From NCBI GenBank assembly GCA_019448385.1, contig JAGTXO010000031.1:312501-376500 (forward strand): 64,000 nt of DNA, written 5' to 3'. Positions within the stretch are counted from its first letter, which is position 1, and the number at the start of each line of letters is the position of its first letter. Positions 29,093-41,194 of the stretch are shown here, one piece after another. Both the position numbers and the translations under genes were made by a program. The notes below the pieces were generated by a model that was not told the origin of the DNA, ran no database searches, and worked only from the letters and a program-made list of their open reading frames with translations. This DNA comes from Diacronema lutheri. Taxonomy: Eukaryota > Haptophyta > Pavlovophyceae > Pavlovales > Pavlovaceae.

Positions 29093-31138
29093 ATGCGCAA
29101 CACGCTCGTGCTCAGCGCGCTCGTCGCAGCATGCCCTCCGGCCGCCCTGGCGCGCATGCCATGGGGTGCGCGCGCCGTCGCGCTCGAACAGACGGACGTG
29201 CCAACGATGGACATATGGCCGTCGGCGCGGCGTCCGACGAGCAAGGCGCGCACATCGGCGCGGCGTTGGGGCTGGCTCGCGGCGGGCGACTCAGCGTTCG
29301 GCAGCGGCAGTTCAGCGAAGGAGGAGGCACAGCAGAAGGCGCAGCAGGCGAAGGACGCTGCGGCTAAAGGCGGCTCTTACGTTGGCGGTGCGCTCGCATC
29401 GCTCCTCCGCGCGCTGGCAAGCTCGCCTCCGTGCCGCGCGCACCGCTCACGGCGCACGCCCTCGCTGCGCGCACCCGCACGCGGCGCGCGCAGACAAGCT
29501 ATGGGGCGCCAAGGAGTCGGTGAAGGGCGCCGCCGGCGCCACGTCGGACCGCGCGCACGACGCCAAGGAGCAGGCCAAGCACGGCGCGTGGCGCCGCGCG
29601 CAGCAGGCCGAGGAGACGGGCGAATCGATGGCCAGGAGGGCCAAGGGCGCCACCGAGGGGGGCGGCTCTTACATTGGCGGTGTGCGCCGCCTCAACTGCG
29701 CGCCTCTTCGCAAGACCGAGCGCTCTTCGAGCCTGCACGCACGCCTCGCGCGCGCGCGCTCACGTGCCCGCGCCCAGTGCGCCGTGCCTGCCTCAATCGA
29801 CCGGCGCGCGCGCAGACAAGCTGTGGGGCGCGAAGGAGTCGGCCAAGGACACCGCCAGCGCCGCGTCAGACCGCGCGCACGACATGAAGGAGAACGTTAA
29901 GGAGAGCGCGTGGCGCGGCGCGCAGCAGGCCAAGGACGCGACCGAGTCGGTTGCGGAGAAAGCCAAGGGCGCCACCAAGGAAAGCGGCTCATACATTGGC
30001 GGTGCGCGCGAGCCGTGCGATCCGTGCGCGTCGCGTGCGGCTCGCGTCGCGTAGCTACCCGCCCACCATGTCGACGCGCGCTAACGCGCGCTTGCCGGCA
30101 CGCTGAACGCGAGTGCGCTCGGCCCCATGCATTTGCACGGCGCGTGCGCAGACAAGCTGTGGGGCGCCAAGGAGTCTGTCAAGGACACCGCCAGCGCTGC
30201 GTCGGACCGTGCATACGATGCCAAGGAGCAGGCCAAGCATGGCGCGTGGCGCGGTGCGCAGCAGGCCAGGCGCGCGACTGAGACGGCCGCCGAGAACGCC
30301 AGGGACGCCACCGCGCACAGCGGCTCGTACATTGGCGGTGCGCGCGCCTGCATGCGCGGCTGGTGCGCGTCAGCGTGCATGCTCGTGCGCACACCAGCGT
30401 CCTCACCGGAGGGTATCGACTGTCTCGCACCGCTCTGCCGCATGCACGCGCAGACAAGCTGTGGGGCGCCAAGGAGTCAGCCAAGGACACCGCCAGCGCC
30501 GCGTCGGACCGCGCATACGATGCCAAGGAGCAAGCCAAGCATGGCGCATGGCGCGGCGCGCAGCAGGCCAGACGCGCGACTGAGACGGCCGCCGAGAACG
30601 CCAGGGACGCCACCGCACACAGCGGCTCGTACATTGGCGGTACGCGCGCCTGCATGCGCGCCCAGCGTGCGCCGAGCGCCGAGCGCGCCATGTCCACAGC
30701 TCTCACGGCACGCCCACGCTGCACGCACGCGCGCGCAGATAAGCTGTGGGGCGCCAAGGAGTCGGCCAAGGACACCGCCAACGCCGCGTCGGACCGCGCG
30801 CACGACATGAAGGAGAACGCTAAGGAGGGCGCGTGGCGCGGCGCGCAGCAGGCCAAGGAGGCGACCGAGTCGGTTGCGGAGCGGGCCAAGCGCGCAGCCG
30901 CCGAAGGGCGGTCATACACCGGCGGTGCATCGCGCACGCGCGCGCGCGCGCATGCGTGCTACCAGCCCGACGCCGCCTCGCGCGTTCGCTCACACTCGCA
31001 CCGCTGCGCGCCGCACGCCCGCGCGATCCGCACGTTCGCCCCGACGCCGTTCCCGGGCCTATTGATCGCGCAGAAAAGTTGGAGCAGAGCAGGGATGCGG
31101 CCCAGTCAGTGAAGGACTCGATCAAGGAGGGCTTGTGA
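29093..31138 (+). CDS. LEA-like secreted protein built from tandemly duplicated 186-nt exons
   Basis: Seven exons: 29093-29387, 29494-29679, 29816-30001, 30152-30337, 30454-30639, 30739-30924, 31074-31138; 429 residues. Exon 1 has a signal peptide (RNTLVLSALVAACPPAALAR) and a first Lys/Ala/Gln-rich helix. Exons 2-6 are each exactly 186 nt, phase 1 at both ends, and encode 62-residue repeats starting DKLWGAKES and ending SYIG, with AHDAKEQAKHGAWRGAQQA-type 11-mer periodicity. The composition (Ala, Lys, Glu, Asp; few hydrophobics) resembles group 3 LEA proteins, which protect membranes or proteins under desiccation, freezing or salt. Exon 7 gives a short EKLEQSRDAAQSVKDSIKEG tail. The signal peptide suggests the ER, plastid envelope or outside; the stress role is inferred. 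Confidence 0.85.
29494..30924 (+). repeat. array of five duplicated exons with intervening introns
   Basis: The repeat unit is one 186-nt exon plus a 99-150-nt intron. Exons are strongly alike, while introns differ in length and sequence except for GTGCGCGC/GTACGC donors and GCGCAG acceptors. Exons at 30152-30337 and 30454-30639 are nearly identical and so the most recent duplicates. Confidence 0.9.
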
Positions 31139-31462: not shown

Positions 31463-34243
31463 TCACTGCGCGGGCGCAGCGCCCAGCAGCCTCTGCAGCC
31501 ACGCCTCGGCACGTCGCTGCGCCATCGGCGAGAGCGGGTTGCGTGCCTCAGTCATGCCGCCAAAGAGGAAAAGGCTGAGGAGCGGGCCCTTAGGCGCGCG
31601 CCGGCCCGCGGGCGCAAAACGCCTCGACGCGCCGCCATGCTCGGCGGACGCCGAGGCGGCCTCACCGCCAGGCGGCAGCGGCGCCGCCGTATCGGTGTGC
31701 GCGTGCTTGGTGCCAGCAGTGTGCGCCGCCGCCGCGAGCTCGTCCGTCAGTGACTCAGCGGGCAGGAGGCCCCACAGCTGCTCGGCGCTCACGCTCGAGG
31801 CGAAGTCCTCGTGCTCGCGCCCGCTCGGCGCGCCGGCGACGGCGCCGCGCGCGCGCGCCGCCGTCAGCGTTGGCACGGGCACGGGCAAGGGCGCAACGAG
31901 CGCAAAGCCGCCGTGCGGCGCGTGCGCGTGCAGCGCGAGCGCGGCGGCGCCGATGGCCGCTGCGGCGAGCACGCCACGCCCGAGCGCGCCGCCGCGCCGC
32001 CCGTCGCGCGCGCGCGCGCGGCGGTCGGCCGCCTCCGGACGAGCGCCGGGCGGAGCGTCGACGGGACGCGCGGGCGGGGCGCGCGCGACAACGCCAGCGC
32101 CAGCGACGACGTGCCCGTGCTGCAGCTGCGGTACAGGCGCGGGCGAGCCAACTTCGCTGAGCGTCGCCTCGGTGGGCGCCGGGCTGTGCGACGCCGTCGG
32201 CGACGAGGACGAGGCGCTCGACGACAACGACAGCGTGCGCGCGGCGGCGGCGCCGTCCGCTCCGCCGCCGGCGCGCGCCGCGTTGGCAGGCGGCGAGAAG
32301 GGACGGCCTGGTCGGCCGCGCGGCGGCGGCGCGGGCGGCGGCGCGCCCTCGAGAATCGCGGCGAGCGCGAGCGCGCCACCGTTGCCGCGCGCCTCGGCGA
32401 TGCGCGTGGGTGGCACCAGCCGTCCCGCGCCGTCCGCGGGCGCGCCGCCGTCAGCGCCGGCCGTCGGCGCGTGCAGAGTTGGCGCGGCGGACGCGCCGAA
32501 CGAGAGCGAGGAGGCGACGGGCGCGCCAGCCGGCGCGAATGTGCCGCGCTCTGATCCGCCGCCAACCGAACCGAGTGTGAGACGGCTCGCCCCAAAGAGC
32601 GCGTCGCCGAGTTCCGAGGCGGTCGCGCCGGTGGGCGGCGCGCGCACGCCGCCCTCCTCGAAGAAGTCGTCCGTCGCCCACTCGGAGATGGACGCCGCGT
32701 CGACGGCCATCTGCGCGAAGCAGTCGTCCGCCGCGCACGCTGCGCTCGACGGCGCGGGCGCGCACGCGCCGACGAGCATGTGCGCGCCGTCCGCGCTGTC
32801 CGCGCCCTCGCTGCTGGCGAGCGGCGCGTGCGGCTGCATGAAGCGCGCGTAGAGCTGCGCGTCGTCGCGGCTGAAGCCCGCGCCCACCACCTCGCCACCC
32901 GCGTCGACGCCGTCGCCGGCCGACCGCGCGCCGGCCGGCGTTGGCGGCATGGCTGCGGCGAGCGCCGCCAGGAACGTGTCCGTGCCACCGCCCGGCATTC
33001 CGACCGCATCGTCGTCACCAAAGCCGTCGAGCTCGCGCTCGAGGGCGTCGGCGTCGACGGAGCGTAGGCCCGACGACGGCGCCGTCATCGTCGACGACGA
33101 GTTGGGCGTGCGCGCCGCCGCCGCGCGGAACGCGCCGTCGAACCCATCGCCGAGCGCGTCCGCGCGCCGTTCGGGCGACTCGGCGAGCGCGACGGGCGCG
33201 ACGAGGAGCACCTGCGAGAGGGCGAGCTCGGCGGCGGAGGTAAAGCCGCGCACGTCCATGTCAGAAGGCGAGATCACGCGCCGGATCGCGTCAAGGCACG
33301 CGCCGACGAACTCCGCGTTGCCCGAGCCAAACCCGGGCGACAGCGGCGAGGCACGCGCGCCCGCCGGCGTCGCCGGCGGCGCGCCCGCCGGCGCGCCGTC
33401 CACGTCGCCAGCGCTGGCGCCGTCGGCGGCCGTCGCGTCGTCGAACGCGAGCGTGCCGCCCTCCGCTGGCGACGCGCGCAGCGGCGCGTCGTCGTCCGCG
33501 CGCGCGGGCGCGCACACGCGCGCGCCTTCGACCAGTTTCGCCGTGAGCTGCACGCCCTTGCGCGCGGCGGTAAGAAGTGCCATCGGCTCGCCGCTGGCGG
33601 GCAGCGCGAAGACGACGGGCGCGAAGACGGTAGCGATCGCGCGCGGGCCCATTCGCGTCACGCGCTCGTGCGCTGCCGTGCGCACCGCGCACTGGACGAG
33701 GAAGGCGACCGTTTCGCCGCGCGCGCCCGAAAGGGACGTGAGCACAGCGTGTGCCGCCGCCTCGTCCTCGGCGGCGTCGAGCGCGGCGAGCTCGTCGGGC
33801 ATGAGGAGCGGACGGAGGCGCTCGTCGACCGCGTACCGCTTGATCAGCGCCGCGAGGCAGTCCGTGCTCGCCGCGCGTGCGGCACTCGCGATGCAGGCCG
33901 CGTTGGCCGCGTCGTCCATGCGGCGCGAAACCGCCTCGAGCTCGGCGGCGTGCGGCTCCTTGCGGAAGAGGCCCTCGTGCGCGCACTCCGCGCGGCGTCG
34001 GACGAGCTCGGCCCAGCACAGCGCCGCGCGCGGCGGGATGGCGCTGCCACGCTGCGCGCCGTCGGCGAGCGGCAACGCGGCGGCGGCGGACGCGCCGCCC
34101 GCCGGCTGAGGCGTCTCAGCGTTGGCGGCGATCGCGCGGAGGTCGAGCGGGGTGGGCGGCGCGTCGTCCTTCTTGAGACGCTGGATCGCGTGCGCGCGCG
34201 GCTGGTTGGTCGTCGGCGTGAGCGGCGCGCGCGCCTTGTCCAT
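31463..34243 (-). CDS. RhoGAP-domain protein with C-terminal membrane helix
   Basis: Single exon, 926 residues, ATG at 34243. The RhoGAP fold lies at about residues 65-215: LCWAELVRRRAECAHEGLFR includes the arginine finger in GLFRKE. Next come CLAALIKRYAVDERLRPLLM, the counterpart of the LK.FLRELPEPLL block, and MGPRAIATVFAPVVF, the NLA.VFGP.L block. It should stimulate GTP hydrolysis by Rho/Rac-type GTPases. The remaining 650 residues are Ala/Gly/Ser/Pro-rich and acidic, without recognised domains. Near residue 790 is a hydrophobic helix (GVLAAAAIGAAALALHAHAP) that may anchor it to a membrane, followed by a conserved-looking tail (SLFLFGGMTEARNPLSPMAQ). Confidence 0.8.
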   Translation of the reverse strand: MDKARAPLTPTTNQPRAHAIQRLKKDDAPPTPLDLRAIAANAETPQPAGGASAAAALPLADGAQRGSAIPPRAALCWAELVRRRAECAHEGLFRKEPHAAELEAVSRRMDDAANAACIASAARAASTDCLAALIKRYAVDERLRPLLMPDELAALDAAEDEAAAHAVLTSLSGARGETVAFLVQCAVRTAAHERVTRMGPRAIATVFAPVVFALPASGEPMALLTAARKGVQLTAKLVEGARVCAPARADDDAPLRASPAEGGTLAFDDATAADGASAGDVDGAPAGAPPATPAGARASPLSPGFGSGNAEFVGACLDAIRRVISPSDMDVRGFTSAAELALSQVLLVAPVALAESPERRADALGDGFDGAFRAAAARTPNSSSTMTAPSSGLRSVDADALERELDGFGDDDAVGMPGGGTDTFLAALAAAMPPTPAGARSAGDGVDAGGEVVGAGFSRDDAQLYARFMQPHAPLASSEGADSADGAHMLVGACAPAPSSAACAADDCFAQMAVDAASISEWATDDFFEEGGVRAPPTGATASELGDALFGASRLTLGSVGGGSERGTFAPAGAPVASSLSFGASAAPTLHAPTAGADGGAPADGAGRLVPPTRIAEARGNGGALALAAILEGAPPPAPPPRGRPGRPFSPPANAARAGGGADGAAAARTLSLSSSASSSSPTASHSPAPTEATLSEVGSPAPVPQLQHGHVVAGAGVVARAPPARPVDAPPGARPEAADRRARARDGRRGGALGRGVLAAAAIGAAALALHAHAPHGGFALVAPLPVPVPTLTAARARGAVAGAPSGREHEDFASSVSAEQLWGLLPAESLTDELAAAAHTAGTKHAHTDTAAPLPPGGEAASASAEHGGASRRFAPAGRRAPKGPLLSLFLFGGMTEARNPLSPMAQRRAEAWLQRLLGAAPAQ

Positions 34244-34376
34244 TGTCGTCGCGCGGTCGGTCTCGGGGTCAAGGTCAAATGGGCGTTTGAAATGACCCGC
34301 GCTCTGCGTTGCCACACTTCCAACGCCCGCATGAGGAAGGAGGGCTGAAACGGCTCGCGCATACGAATCGCCCGAG

Positions 34377-36095
34377 ATGTCGAGCAGATCGTGCGAGCTT
34401 GAGGCGCTCAGCCGGAGGGAGCTGCAGCTTTTGGCCAAGCAGCACGGCGTGCGCGCGAACGCTCGCACGGAGGAGCTGATCGCGCAACTCACACCCCGCC
34501 TCGCTGCGGCAGATTCGTCCAAGGCCGCGCGTCTCTCGCCGGGCGTCGCCAGGCCGGGCTCGGACGCCAAGCCTGGCGCGCACTCACCGCACTCGAGTGC
34601 CACGCAGCGCTCGCCGGCGTGCGCGCGCGCGGAGATCCCGTCGCCCCGCGCCAGCGTACCTGTTGCCGCTGCCGCCGCAGTCGCACCGGAGCTCACCAAG
34701 TCCAAGTCGCTCCTGCAGAGCCCGGGCTTTGCGCGCAGGAGGTCGAGCGCGGGCGCGCTCGCGTTCGCCGCGGACGCGAGCAAACCGCTCTTCTCGCTCG
34801 GCGCGACGGCCGCCGCGGTTCCACCGGCACTCGGCGTGGCGGAAGACGATGACAGCGACGAGGCGCTCGACGCCCACCTGCCGTCGATCATCGACGCGCG
34901 CCGACGTGCGCGCGCCGTGCGGCGGCGCTGCGCGGCGCGGCGCGTTGCTCGCTCACGCGCGTCCCGCACCGCGCTTAGTCTTACGCGCCCCGCGCCGCGC
35001 ATTGGCCCTCCGTGCGCTCGCGCCTCGCGACGGTGCGCAGTCGAAGTGATTCGCGGCAAGGTGGCGGCGCGCACGGAGGCGTCGCGCACGCACCGCGCAA
35101 GCCGCGCCAACGAGCGCCGGACCAAGTCAGACAAGCTGCGCTCCGTCCGGCCGACGATGCCCAAGCTGTTCGTGCCCGGCGTCACGACTGGCTCGGGCGC
35201 GCCCAAGGTCGTCAGCCGCTGCCCGGGCACACACCTGCCAGCGCTCCCTGCGCACGGCCACACTTCGGCATCCAACCCGAGCGCGTGCGCGCACGCCGCC
35301 CCGCAGTCCGGCACGCCCGCGTGCGCGTCGCACCGCCACAACTACGCGGCCGGCGCGAGCGCGGGTGGCACGGCCGGTGGCGGAGCGCGGCCGAGCGCGC
35401 GCGTGCACACGCTCGAACACTCACCGTTCGTGCCGCTTAGGAGCGAGAAGAAGCTGACGGTACGTGGGCGGGGCGGCGCCGCGCACGGGGCCCGCGCGCG
35501 CCGCGCTGCGCTGCGCGCCAGCGCGCGTTTAGGCCGCGCCGTGCGCCCGTCGTGCCCGGCCGTGCACTTTCCTTCGTGTTCTGACCGTCTGCTGCCCGCC
35601 GACCGCTGCGCGTGCGCCGCTTCGCTCACGCAGGAGCCCGTTGGCTTCAACTTTTGCATCGGCGCGGACGTGCTGCGCGACGGGCAGCGCGCGCCGGCGC
35701 AGCCGCGCCCCAAGGCGCTGCGCATCGCCGAGAAGCGGCGCAAGGAGGCGGAGGCTAAGGCGGCGGAGAAGGCACGCAAGGCCGAGGAGGTGCGCCGGCG
35801 CGTCGCTGAGCATCGCCTCGAGTTCGCCGCCGCGACGGGCCCCGGCGCGGGCTCGCGCTCGAATGCGCCTGCGCCGGCTGACGTGCCCAAGGCCAAGGCG
35901 CTTGCGCCCACGCTGACCAACCAGCTGCAGTATCCCGATGAGCGCGCTGGCAAGGTGGCTGCGCCCCCTCCTCGCGCGGGGGTCAAGCAAGCCGCGAGCC
36001 ACGAGGCGTTGCGCAAGCAGAAGGTGGACCGTTTCGTGATTGGCGCCAAGGCGCGCCGCAACGCCAAGCTGATGGCCGCGCGTGAGAACCTCTGA
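34377..36095 (+). CDS. SAP-domain basic protein, NuSAP/TPX2-like
   Basis: Three exons (34377-34905, 35041-35459, 35634-36095), 469 residues. The N-terminal SAP motif ELQLLAKQHGVRANARTEEL is followed by a basic, Ser/Ala-rich linker. The second exon includes MPKLFVPGVTTGSGAPKVVS. The second splice joins RSEKKLT to EPVGFNFCIGADV, reminiscent of the KPLT.P..F.F signature of TPX2/NuSAP-type microtubule-binding proteins. A charged single helix follows (RIAEKRRKEAEAKAAEKARK). SAP domains bind AT-rich or scaffold DNA, and NuSAP links chromatin and spindle. The assignment is by domain order and weak motifs. It starts 133 bp from the divergent RhoGAP start codon. Confidence 0.6.
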   Translation: MSSRSCELEALSRRELQLLAKQHGVRANARTEELIAQLTPRLAAADSSKAARLSPGVARPGSDAKPGAHSPHSSATQRSPACARAEIPSPRASVPVAAAAAVAPELTKSKSLLQSPGFARRRSSAGALAFAADASKPLFSLGATAAAVPPALGVAEDDDSDEALDAHLPSIIDARRRARAVRRRCAARRVARSRASRTALSLTRPAPRIGPPCARASRRCAVEVIRGKVAARTEASRTHRASRANERRTKSDKLRSVRPTMPKLFVPGVTTGSGAPKVVSRCPGTHLPALPAHGHTSASNPSACAHAAPQSGTPACASHRHNYAAGASAGGTAGGGARPSARVHTLEHSPFVPLRSEKKLTVRGRGGAAHGARARRAALRASARLGRAVRPSCPAVHFPSCSDRLLPADRCACAASLTQEPVGFNFCIGADVLRDGQRAPAQPRPKALRIAEKRRKEAEAKAAEKARKAEEVRRRVAEHRLEFAAATGPGAGSRSNAPAPADVPKAKALAPTLTNQLQYPDERAGKVAAPPPRAGVKQAASHEALRKQKVDRFVIGAKARRNAKLMAARENL

Positions 36096-36812: not shown

Positions 36813-39800
36813 TCACCAGTCGTCACCCGCGCCAGCCATGATGGCCTCGATGTCGCAATCGCCGCCGTCGAGCAGAACGTCGATCACGAGCCGATGGTTG
36901 GCCGGGTCGTCGTGCGCGTAGGCGCAGTCTCGGTATTTGCCCTCCACCTCCTCCCACGTTCGGCGCGCGGCGCGCCCATAGTGGAACGCGCCACCATGCG
37001 GCGTGCACGAACCGGCTCGCGCCGCGCGGTCGGCGTCGGCGTCGGCGGCGTACGGCGCGGGCGCGCTCGAGTTCGCGTGCGGCAGCGCGTCGAGCGCCGC
37101 GCGGAACGGGAAGGCGAGCGCGCGCCGCGCCTCCTCGTCGCGGGCGCTCAGCCGGCGGGCGCCCCGCATCGCCGGGTCGTGCAGCACGCGGAAGACGATA
37201 AAATGGAGCCACATGGACCGCACGACGGGCGACCAGTGGCGCGTGAGCGCGCACGCGTGCGGCGCGAGAGCGCGGAGGAGCTGCGCGCGCGCCTCGTCGC
37301 CGAGGGCATGCAGGTGGTTGTGCAAGAAGATGAGAGTCCACGCCTGCACTTTAAAATGGTCGCTCAGCACCTGCCGGACGAGGCGGAGGACGAGCGCGTG
37401 CAGCCCGACGTTCGGCGGCAAAGGTTCGTTGTGCTCCTGCAGCGCGCTCAACCAGAGCCCCAACTGCTTGAGCGCGCCGTACACCGAACGCGGCCGGTGC
37501 GTGCCCGCGCGCGCGAACGCGACGAGCAGGAAGACTTGGAGCAATGGCGGATTGTGCGCGATCTGTAACGCGGCGCATTGGCCGAGCGACTCGGGCCACG
37601 CGTCGCATGGCCGCCGTTTCGCCTCGAGGAGCAGCGCCTGCGATGGCGGCGCGGCGGGCGGCGCACGTCGCGGTGAGCGGCGCGGCGTCGCAAGCGGCCG
37701 CACGCCGTGGGCGCGAGGCGCGGGTGAACGCCGCCATGCTTGCGGCGCGCGCACCTTCATAAGCTGCGCGTAACCGTTCACCGCCTGCCACATGAAACCG
37801 CCGCGCATCATCCCGCCCGGCGCGTACCGCGCGACGTGCTCTGTCCAATGCATAAAGACCGTGAAGAAGAGATGGCCGCGGTTACGTAACCGGTCGAGCC
37901 AACCGTCGCCCGCGCGCGCAAGAAGCGTGCCCTCGTGGCCGCGCCGCGCGCTCGACGTCGCCTCGCCCTCCGCCGCGCCAAGCCGCTCCCATAGTAACGA
38001 CCAAAGCGGATCCGTGACGCCGAAGCCGAGGCCAATGGCCTGCTCGTCCGTCGCGTCGCCCTCACCCACGTCTGCAAGGCTCGCCATCGACAGGCCACTC
38101 ACGCCGCGCGCGCGCGCGCTTGCGAGGCCATACGCGACGCCATGCGCGCCCGCGTGCGTCGGCACCTCGAGCCCGGCCGTGCCGCGGTCGAGCGACAGCG
38201 CGGAGAGCGCGCGCCCGCCCGCGCCGAGCCCGCCCGCGCCGAGCCCGCCCGCGCCAAGCCCGCCCGCGCCAAGCCCACTTACCGAGCGCACGGCGAGCGC
38301 GCACGCGTGCGCTACAAGCGCGCCGTGCGAGAGCGAGCGCGCGGCGCGCGCGTGCTGGCAGGACGCGGCCGTCTCCACCGCGCCGCCGGCCGCATCCGCG
38401 CTGTTGTTCGCGCTCGCGCCCGCGCCCGCCGTGCCGGCGCCGCCCGCTGCGCTGTCGCCGTCGGCGGCGGGCGCGGCGGCGCGGCGTGGCGCGCCCTCGT
38501 CGCCGCCCTCCGCGTCCGCCTCCTCGCGCAACTCCGCGCCATGCGACAGTGACCTGGGGATCCGTTCGCTCGAGCGACGCGGCCGCGCGACGCCGCCGCT
38601 TTCGTGGGGCGCGCCGGCCGCGCGCGCGCGCGCGCCGTCGTCGGCGCTTTCGGCGCCCCGCCCGGGCGAGGCGGGCGAGGCCGTGCCGGTGAGCGAGCCG
38701 CTTGAGAGCGGCGACCTGCGCAACGACGAGAAGGGCGGGCGCTCGCCGTCCGTGCCCGCGTCCGCGCTCGCGCGCCGGCCGCCGAGCGCGCGCCGCGCGC
38801 CCGCGCCCGCGCCCGCGCCTGCGCCCGCGCCGTCAGCTACCGGCGCGTCGGCGTGCTTGCCAAAGCCGATGGCGAGCTGCAGCTGCTCGACGTGCGCGGC
38901 GGCGGCGAGCGCAAAGCCGAACGAGCGCGAGCGCCGCGCCGGCGCGCGCGCGCCGGCGGCGCGCCCACCGCCGCCGCTACCGTCGGTGGCCGAGCCGTTC
39001 GAGCCGTTCGCGCCACTGGCGCTCGCGCTGCTGTACGCGCCGGTGCTCGAAGCGTTCGAGCCGCGCGACGCGGATTCCATGAGCGGCGGGTGGAGCGCGT
39101 GCGCGCGCGGGCGCGGCACGCACACGCCGCGCAGCGCGCGCGAGTTGAGGCTCCACTCGAGGCACCACTGTCGGATGTGACGCCGCCGGTTTTCAATGTC
39201 GGGCAGCACGGCACGCAGCATGGCGGTGCGCGTCTCGGGCAGGCGGAAGAAGGTGACGGCAAGCGTGCGCGCGCAGAAGGCGGTGAGGTCGGGCGTGAGC
39301 GCCTTCGAGTTGAGGCATTCGAGCGCGAACGCGAGCGTCTCGTGCAGCACGTGGCGGTACCGTGCGATGTCGCGCGGCAGCAGCAGGTTGGATGTGACGG
39401 CGTCAAGCTCGCCGCGACACATCACCTGGTAGATCACCTCGAGGCACAGCGCGTGCGACTCGTCGAACGGGTCGGCCATCACGAGGCCGAGCAGCGCCGA
39501 CCACGCCTGCGCGGTGGCCGCGCAAAAGAGCGGTGGTGAAAGAAGGGTGAAGGGGAAGGGGGGGTGGGGGGTTACTCGCGTCAGTGACCGCGCGTGTTCG
39601 CGCGGCGCGGGTCGCACGACGCGTGCGCGGCGCAGCGCGCGCGCGCCTTTAAAAATGCGCGCTGCGCGAACTGGAGAGCCTCCTCGGTGGAGTAGAAGAA
39701 GGCGCAGCGCGACTCCTTGTGCGAGAGGCGGAGGAGCTGAAGCAGTCGCGACTGTGTGTGCTGCAAACGGCGGCGCGTCAACGTCAAATTGGCGCCCGAG

Positions 39801-41194
39801 AGCGACGCGGCGATCGCTGCGCCATTGTCCGAATACCGGCGGCGCATGCCTTCCGACGCGGAGCCGCTGCGCCCGAGCCGCGCCGGCCCGCAGCCGCCAT
39901 CGCTGCTGCCGAAACCGCTGGACCCGCCGGATTCGCCCTCGCGCCTGCCGGCCTCGAGGTCCGCGAGGCTCGTGAGCGAGCACGCCGCTCGGCGCATCGC
40001 GCAGCCGCCGCCGACGCCGCCGGACGGTTGCGGCTGCGATGGCTGCGGCTGCAGCAGCTCCGCAACGCCCGCCGCGCACGCGCCGCCGCTCGCCGCGCGC
40101 GCGCGCCCGACGACAAGGCGGCCCGTCGGCGTGCCGCGCGCGCCGCGCTCGGCCACGCCGTCGGGCGAGCTGCCGCGCGCGCCGCGCGCGCCCGCGGCGG
40201 GTGAGTGTGCCGCGTCGAGGAGCGCGCGTACCTGATGAGACAGCGCGACGACCTGCGTGACGTGCGTGGCGATCTGCGCGAGCTCCGACGGCACGTCGAG
40301 GTGACGTGGCGGCGAATCGATCACCGCGCCGTCAGTCGACGCGTGCGCGCGCGCGTGCTCGGTAAGGTCGTCGAACGACGCGCCCTGGCGCGAGAGCGCG
40401 CAAGGCGTGCCGTTCCCGCCGCCCGTTGATTTGCCCGATCTGTTCGACGCGCCGCCGCCCGTCGCCCAGTCAGATGATGGCAGCTCATCAATGTCGCCGC
40501 CCCCGTGCTCGTCACCGATGCGCAACTCGGGCGGGCGCGCGGGCGCGAGCGCGCCGGCCGCGGCCGCGCCGCATCGCACGCCGTCGATCGTCGCGCCCGA
40601 GCCCGACGCGGAGACAAGCGGCACAATGGGTGACGACATTGTGAAACCGTACTCGGTGAAATACCCAAACGGGCGCTGGAGCACTTGAGGCCCATCGCGG
40701 ACGATCACGATGCCCTTGATCGTGCCGACGCGCTGACCGTCGCGCCAGAGCACCTGCGTTAAGCGCGCGACACGGGCGGCGCGCGCAGCGGGCGGTGCGT
40801 CGGCGCGCGGCGCGAAGGCGACGGGCCGGCCGCGCCGCCGCCAGCGCGGCGCGGCGCAGCCGCACGCGCGGGCAGGCGCGGGCGCGCGCAGGCGCGGGCG
40901 CGCGCAGGGGCGGGCGCGGGCAGGCGCGGGCATGGGCGGCAGCCATGCGCGCCGCCGCCGGTGGCGCGCCCCGCGCCGTGGGCAGCAGCCGCGCGAGCGC
41001 ACGCACCTCCTCGAACCGCTCCGCCGAGCGCGCGGTGCACGACGCCCGACCGAGACGCGGCGTGTACATTTTAGAAAGCGGCACCCAGCAGTCGCCAATG
41101 GGCTCGATGCCGAGAGACGAGATGACGCGGTCGGGCGGCGCGCCGATCGCCGCGCCGAGCGTCGTCGAGACCGGCGGCGCGTCCGCGAGCGAGA

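Follow-up and report, generated by a model that had tools for sequence, protein, structure and literature searches.

In the Diacronema lutheri DNA analysed here, a stretch of 64,000 nt that we refer to as the window, the predicted gene at 29093-31138 (+) contains five consecutive exons of one exact length, and at least three paralogues in the same genome share its exon cassette. A first-pass annotation of the window had singled out the run of five exons; that observation is right and indeed understated, as three further genes carry the cassette. Since related predicted exons occur in three other D. lutheri genes, the family probably expanded and was rearranged in steps of single exons. On balance, and with some reserve, we favour the joint reading that this is a LEA-like gene family of symmetric exon cassettes that were copied and exchanged, that it encodes a predicted amphipathic-helix protectant, and that its first exons address the products to compartments. 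What is new here is the set of at least three paralogues with a shared cassette, together with an exchange between loci that the sequences suggest; the interpretation offered by the first-pass annotation is partly supported overall.

Gene structure and paralogues

The window gene, with seven predicted exons, has 429 codons followed by a stop. Each of exons 2-6 measures exactly 186 nt, is phase 1 on both sides and encodes 62 residues, so that the exon run reported by the first-pass annotation is confirmed by the predicted coordinates and their GT-AG introns. The first base of a codon is left behind at every predicted junction of the gene (phase 1), and introns 1-6, of 106, 136, 150, 116, 99 and 149 nt, all have the form GT...GCAG. 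The predicted features are as follows.

29093..29387, +, exon 1: 295 nt; start codon, predicted signal peptide MRNTLVLSALVAACPPAALA, Arg/Ser-rich stretch
within 29093..29387, +, 3' portion of exon 1: first part of the repeat region; terminal GGSYV-G
29388..29493, +, intron 1: 106 nt, GT-AG, phase 1
29494..29679, +, exon 2 (unit 1): 186 nt, phase 1-1
29680..29815, +, intron 2: 136 nt
29816..30001, +, exon 3 (unit 2): 186 nt; exon positions 127-186 are a predicted gene-conversion tract (2 differences in 60 against exon 3 of the C95 paralogue)
30002..30151, +, intron 3: 150 nt; in-frame stops
30152..30337, +, exon 4 (unit 3): 186 nt; 95.2% identity to unit 4
30338..30453, +, intron 4: 116 nt
30454..30639, +, exon 5 (unit 4): 186 nt
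30640..30738, +, intron 5: 99 nt; length divisible by three, reading frame open
30739..30924, +, exon 6 (unit 5): 186 nt
30925..31073, +, intron 6: 149 nt
31074..31138, +, last exon: 65 nt; EKLEQSRDAAQSVKDSIKEGL, then TGA

The lengths of introns 1, 2, 4 and 6 are not divisible by three. Intron 5 (30640-30738) is the sole intron of the gene whose length is divisible by three and whose frame stays open, and its retention would give an isoform with 33 added residues. The GC content of the repeat exons is 88% at third codon positions, 65% at first and 58% at second, and that of the introns is 75%; the third-position value, set against that of the introns, gives the exons a coding signature.

Searches of the D. 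lutheri genome itself (43,492,796 bases, 103 contigs) place paralogues on three contigs other than that of the window (C93, on which the window gene occupies 341593-343638), here called C95, C91 and C101; the best candidates were scored, and three is therefore a lower bound. Their gene models are listed below.

C95, 107585-108903: 307 aa; exons of 448, 219, 186 and 71 nt
C91, 166323-167304: 182 aa; exons of 34, 246, 192 and 77 nt
C101, 11945-13606: 474 aa; exons of 586, 672 and 167 nt

In the four models, which were built with the phase-1 cassette rule already in view, all 14 introns are phase 1 and all 10 internal exons are symmetric (five of 186 nt in the window gene; 219 and 186; 246 and 192; 672 nt). 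We note that the deposited D. lutheri protein KFE25_008442 equals the C91 model letter for letter, so that 3 of the 14 junctions match an independent annotation; the annotation of this genome is described as having been made with RNA-seq (PMC8379373). No deposited spliced protein was found for the window gene or for the C95 or C101 model in protein searches that scored about 8000 candidates each (C95 was not queried alone).

The cassettes of the four models start with [D/E]KLxxAKE or nearly so, and most of them end with GSY[I/V]G or nearly so. A splice acceptor followed by KLxxAKE, a pattern that was derived from these same genes, has eight matches in 43.5 Mb, all of them at family cassette starts (8 of the 14 model starts), and the reversed-pattern control has none in the genome. 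The donor pattern, with up to two mismatches allowed, has 15 genome matches, eight of which (0-1 mismatch) are family exons and seven (2 mismatches) lie elsewhere, compared with 11 for its control with the mismatch classes pooled. The donor-pattern matches on C92 were rejected as family members: they belong to a near-duplicate gene pair at C92:329200-333500, two near-identical copies about 3.2 kb apart that are unrelated to the cassette family. When unit 2 was used as a DNA query in the same genome, matches fell on C93, C95 and C91 only. A different search of this genome gave a weak match on C86 (E 0.0095, 29% identity).

The C101 gene carries, at C101:12245-13331, tandem 111-nt (37-residue) repeats within single exons, and the family has thus grown both inside exons and by whole exons. 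Beside the C91 paralogue (168180-168225 and from 168369) lies a small separate gene model, MSDREDPTRMAPNVA-DKLSRAKEDVK..., with the same phase-1 junction ahead of its DKLxxAKE exon. Between the two C91 genes, at about 167640-167910 on the minus strand, is an Ala/Lys/Glu-rich LEA-like stretch (ISDAKDTLVSQ...AKERATQAIKESAAKEQAVRAIDEGAEKAKSKG), which suggests a small cluster. A shared upstream element was considered and rejected: a 7-mer is common to four of five upstream regions, a count not above chance, as random window segments, which are GC-richer than the upstream regions, hold on average 12 such 7-mers.

Protein character and family assignment

The group 3 LEA 11-mer rule, as formulated in PMC10295645, runs apolar-apolar-acidic/amide-x-apolar-basic-acidic/amide-basic-apolar-x-acidic/amide. 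The units match this rule at 60-71% compared with shuffled means of 39-42%, and 0 of 2000 shuffles equalled the real score in each of the five units, which supports the earlier description of the repeats as LEA-like. The pattern extends across all four paralogous proteins, with windowed z values of 8.7-16.2. Arranged modulo 11, the units have four positions that are mostly Ala or small apolar, one that is Lys/Arg and three that are mostly Asp/Glu/Gln, with position 8 of the 11-mer (column 9 of the modulo-11 table), basic by the rule, being mostly Ala/Ser. Five weakly matching proteins, some of them labelled YtxH or apolipoprotein, also score high on the 11-mer test (z 9.1-11.2), and the test therefore marks a helix class and not a clade.

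Three of the proteins have their maximum hydrophobic moment at 98 degrees and that of C101 has it at 100 degrees (0.25-0.34 against 0.18-0.21 when shuffled), as would an 11/3 helix. AlphaFold2, given one unit with the other four as the alignment, predicted a single helix over residues 2-57 with a mean pLDDT of 73, and such a single predicted helix says little alone. The window protein is hydrophilic (GRAVY -0.94) and has one Cys and 14 Trp among its 429 residues. LEA proteins are usually Trp-poor, and 14 Trp is odd for one of them.

No family exceeded its cut-off in Pfam (a release older than PF28479 and PF27970) for the window protein or any of the other three, or in NCBIfam for the window, C95 and C91 proteins. 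The prospect, raised by the first-pass annotation, that a profile search might assign the repeat to an unrelated family has thus not materialized in these two collections, where LEA_4 also falls short of its cut-off. Against a gathering score of 51.1, LEA_4 reached 16.2 bits on the exon 1 piece, 19.3 on the C95 exon and 15.2 on joined C95, and it had no match in the spliced window protein up to E 10. COR15A and COR15B are likewise described as not above the LEA_4 threshold and are yet filed as LEA_4 (PMC2292704). Precomputed Pfam labels place PF28479 on the window ORF P0001 and PF27970 on the C91 protein P0004, and both labels also sit on weak relatives; the repeats may thus already belong to a family that has a name. 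Because the LEA_4 profile stays short of its cut-off and the two labels belong to a newer Pfam, we call the protein LEA-like only: it is LEA-like and is not a filed member of LEA_4. The window protein also matches NCBIfam lipo_Ag473 below its cut-off of 100 bits (E 6.6e-9, 36.6 bits), which we take to reflect likeness of composition and repeats, not kinship.

The protein searches, each with about 8000 candidates scored, returned two of the window's own ORFs together with the protein and an ORF of C91; the other five matches (P0003 and P0006-P0009) are weak, and one of them is from Clydaea vesicula. The best of the five, P0003, has E 8.2e-11 and 36% identity with 50% of the query covered. The C101 protein as query had no match among about 8000 candidates scored, and no close relative outside D. 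lutheri was found in these searches, at a depth at which distant ones may be missed. Pattern searches with an alignment in which unit 3 stood twice and unit 4 was left out gave 42 stretches in viral contigs and 35 in prokaryote genomes, collections in which haptophytes are not expected, and none of either set was confirmed by tblastn. Among the papers listed on haptophyte LEA proteins and on LEA exon duplication, no title or abstract opening revealed the cassette family, and 'late embryogenesis' has 0 occurrences in the main text of the D. lutheri genome paper (PMC8379373).

The window protein begins as a signal peptide does, with a short basic segment, a hydrophobic core (Kyte-Doolittle 2.07 over residues 5-19) and Ala-Leu-Ala, and the 54 residues after this putative signal peptide have 8 basic and 4 acidic side chains. 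A hydrophobic N-terminal stretch is also present in the C95 and C101 proteins and is lacking in that of C91. Judged from its N-terminus, the ER, secretion or a complex plastid is a possible destination of the window protein. The first-pass annotation had held a signal peptide to be unusual for a group 3 LEA protein, a view at odds with Arabidopsis precedents: LEA_4 proteins of that plant are reported as predicted in all compartments (PMC2292704), several have been observed in the ER, and ER and plastid members are known (PMC8698616).

Alternatively, and this is the main rival to a LEA-like protectant, the protein might be a lipid-surface coat of the perilipin, apolipoprotein or phasin kind, its 11/3 helix lying against lipid droplets or the membranes of the ER or the plastid. 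The helix signature also fits lipid-surface proteins, and the hydrophobic stripe drifts by about 190 degrees across the five units (about 290 residues), as might suit such a coat. Perilipin 4, for instance, is described as a repetitive amphipathic helix of great length and weak hydrophobicity, the human protein carrying 29 33-mer repeats (PMC8064757), and the window family resembles perilipin 4, apolipoproteins and phasins in its 11/3-type helix, long arrays and weak apolar face. The C95 protein has weak matches to Apolipoprotein (5.4e-6, 26.7 bits against a cut-off of 90), to YtxH (PF12732) as second best (3e-5, 24.8 bits against 37.5), to phasin (0.0053, below cut-off) and to Perilipin (7.2 bits against 33), and further ones, again below cut-off, to LEA_4, ApoO and ApoLp-III. 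Every one of the lipid-family matches is nevertheless under its cut-off, and the window protein has no match to the Perilipin or Apolipoprotein A1/A4/E profiles. Its only Pfam match is to YtxH (E 0.13, 13.2 bits), so that the likeness to YtxH-like proteins is a weak match only in both the window and the C95 protein. Moreover, the charge order of the 11-mers obeys the group 3 LEA rule, unlike that of the lipid-surface proteins, and the predicted signal peptide, a further difference from them, would if real exclude the protein from the cytosol, the site of lipid droplets. We therefore regard a lipid coat as unlikely and retain the LEA-like protectant as the preferred reading.

Origin of the repeat exons

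The five units are homologous, lie head to tail and share one phase, which supports the earlier proposal that the gene grew by tandem duplication of a symmetric exon. Their pairwise nucleotide identity is 75.8-95.2%, and every one of them is distinct in sequence. The two middle exons, units 3 and 4, are indeed nearly identical, being the closest pair at 95.2%; nine codons differ between them, one of the nine non-synonymously (dN 0.007, dS 0.212; binomial P 0.00026 if 72% of changes are assumed to be non-synonymous by expectation). A tree of nine units has good support at one of its six inner branches and does not give the order of duplication.

As the first-pass annotation noted, the introns vary in length, from 99 to 150 nt; they are less alike than the exons, yet not wholly dissimilar. 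With splice ends included, all 15 intron pairs exceed mononucleotide shuffles; with 6 nt trimmed from each intron end and 400 segments of the window as reference, 4 of the 15 reach P < 0.05, of which that of introns 1 and 5 (P 0.0025) alone stays significant when corrected for 15 tests. Introns 4 and 5 agree at 20 of their first 21 bases; beyond these they can be aligned with gaps only, and the gapped alignment has 78 identical positions against 61 +/- 3 in shuffles. This likeness of introns 4 and 5 weakens the case for exon-bounded conversion between units 3 and 4. That the exons are more alike than the introns fits purifying selection or conversion within exons, and the sequences do not tell the two apart.

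These comparisons also bear on a second alternative, namely that the repeats arose first within one exon and that introns, in the manner of introner-like elements, were inserted later at the same site of each unit. The 37-aa repeats inside single exons of C101 would suit such a history, as would the 11 of 15 trimmed intron pairs whose likeness does not exceed that of random segments from the window. Against it, the junctions have the same place and phase in four models despite differing unit lengths, and introns 4 and 5, with their shared starts and their alignment beyond shuffles, adjoin the most similar exons. Late insertion is on this evidence quite improbable, and duplication of exons together with their introns remains our preferred account.

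A different kind of event is suggested by unit 2. Exon 3 of the C95 model is, like the window units, exactly 186 nt. Of the 37 sites at which it differs from unit 2, 2 fall within the final 60 bases. The two exons agree at 23 variable sites in a row, a stretch reached in 0 of 5000 permutations, which treat sites as exchangeable. Units 1, 3 and 4 have no such tract with C95 exon 3, unit 5 is marginal (0.027 corrected), and the remaining 13 of the 15 pairs in the permutation test are not significant once corrected. A fixed cut, chosen post hoc, puts 5 of the 37 differences in the last 66 nt (P 0.001). The 8 intron bases that follow the tract also agree, but these are a common donor start here. 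In a comparison with unit 5 by 31-nt blocks, unit 2 is 87-97% identical in blocks one to five, and the final block falls to 65%. The two-site tract, the permutations that failed to reach it and the block pattern against unit 5 together lead us to the reading that unit 2 or C95 exon 3 is a mosaic, which suggests ectopic gene conversion between the two loci.

It is very improbable that the locus is non-functional or mis-assembled and its exons plain neutral copies: the failure to find a deposited spliced protein for the window locus among the roughly 8000 candidates scored per search would be in keeping with it, but few of the changes that separate units 3 and 4 are non-synonymous, the frame is open across seven predicted exons, GC3 in the repeat exons is high, no two units are identical, and public contigs of at most 4.1 kb (possibly not independent of this genome's record) hold ORFs (P0001, P0002 and P0005) identical to those of the window and C91.

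Discussion

We propose that a cassette bounded by phase 1 on both sides could be gained, dropped or exchanged with the reading frame left intact. New copies would come from unequal exchange; the likeness of some copies would be maintained by selection, by gene conversion within exons or by both. The predicted protein would be loosely ordered in water and might, on drying or when bound to a surface, become one long amphipathic helix. A larger number of cassettes would give a longer shield, and family members are predicted to reach different compartments according to their first exons. A more ambitious version, in which a haptophyte possesses a LEA-like toolkit of one interchangeable cassette that is copied in tandem, converted within exons across contigs and fitted with varied first-exon caps to yield compartment-specific shield lengths, is one that we advance as speculation and hold to be doubtful in its entirety.

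The closest comparison is with group 3 LEA proteins (LEA_4; the Arabidopsis members and C. elegans LEA-1), which the window protein resembles in its repeated 11-mers of one charge/apolar pattern, its hydrophilic character and its predicted amphipathic helix; some Arabidopsis members are ER- or organelle-targeted, and the window protein has its predicted signal peptide. It differs from them in being Trp-rich, in scoring below the LEA_4 cut-off, in having a repeat unit of 62 residues that equals one symmetric exon, and in having no close relative outside D. lutheri among the roughly 8000 candidates scored per search. As in known tandem duplications of symmetric exons, an exon of one phase has been copied head to tail with its introns (the window junctions being predicted); unlike in those cases, the related cassettes are spread here over four loci, two of which have probably exchanged sequence once.

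The number of 11-mers is reported to vary among group 3 LEA proteins, and the C. elegans LEA-1 paper, where it turns to the matter, leaves the importance of that number unclear (PMC8670023). In the window family protein length seems to change in one-exon steps, and the number of units, which as the first-pass annotation proposed may vary between strains, could be counted. The mosaic exon, for its part, shows on a small scale what is probably exchange between dispersed genes. We note finally that the reading frames adjoining the window gene, at 31466-35341 (-) and 36816-40079 (-), contain a RhoGAP domain and a DUF1765 domain, both above their Pfam cut-offs.
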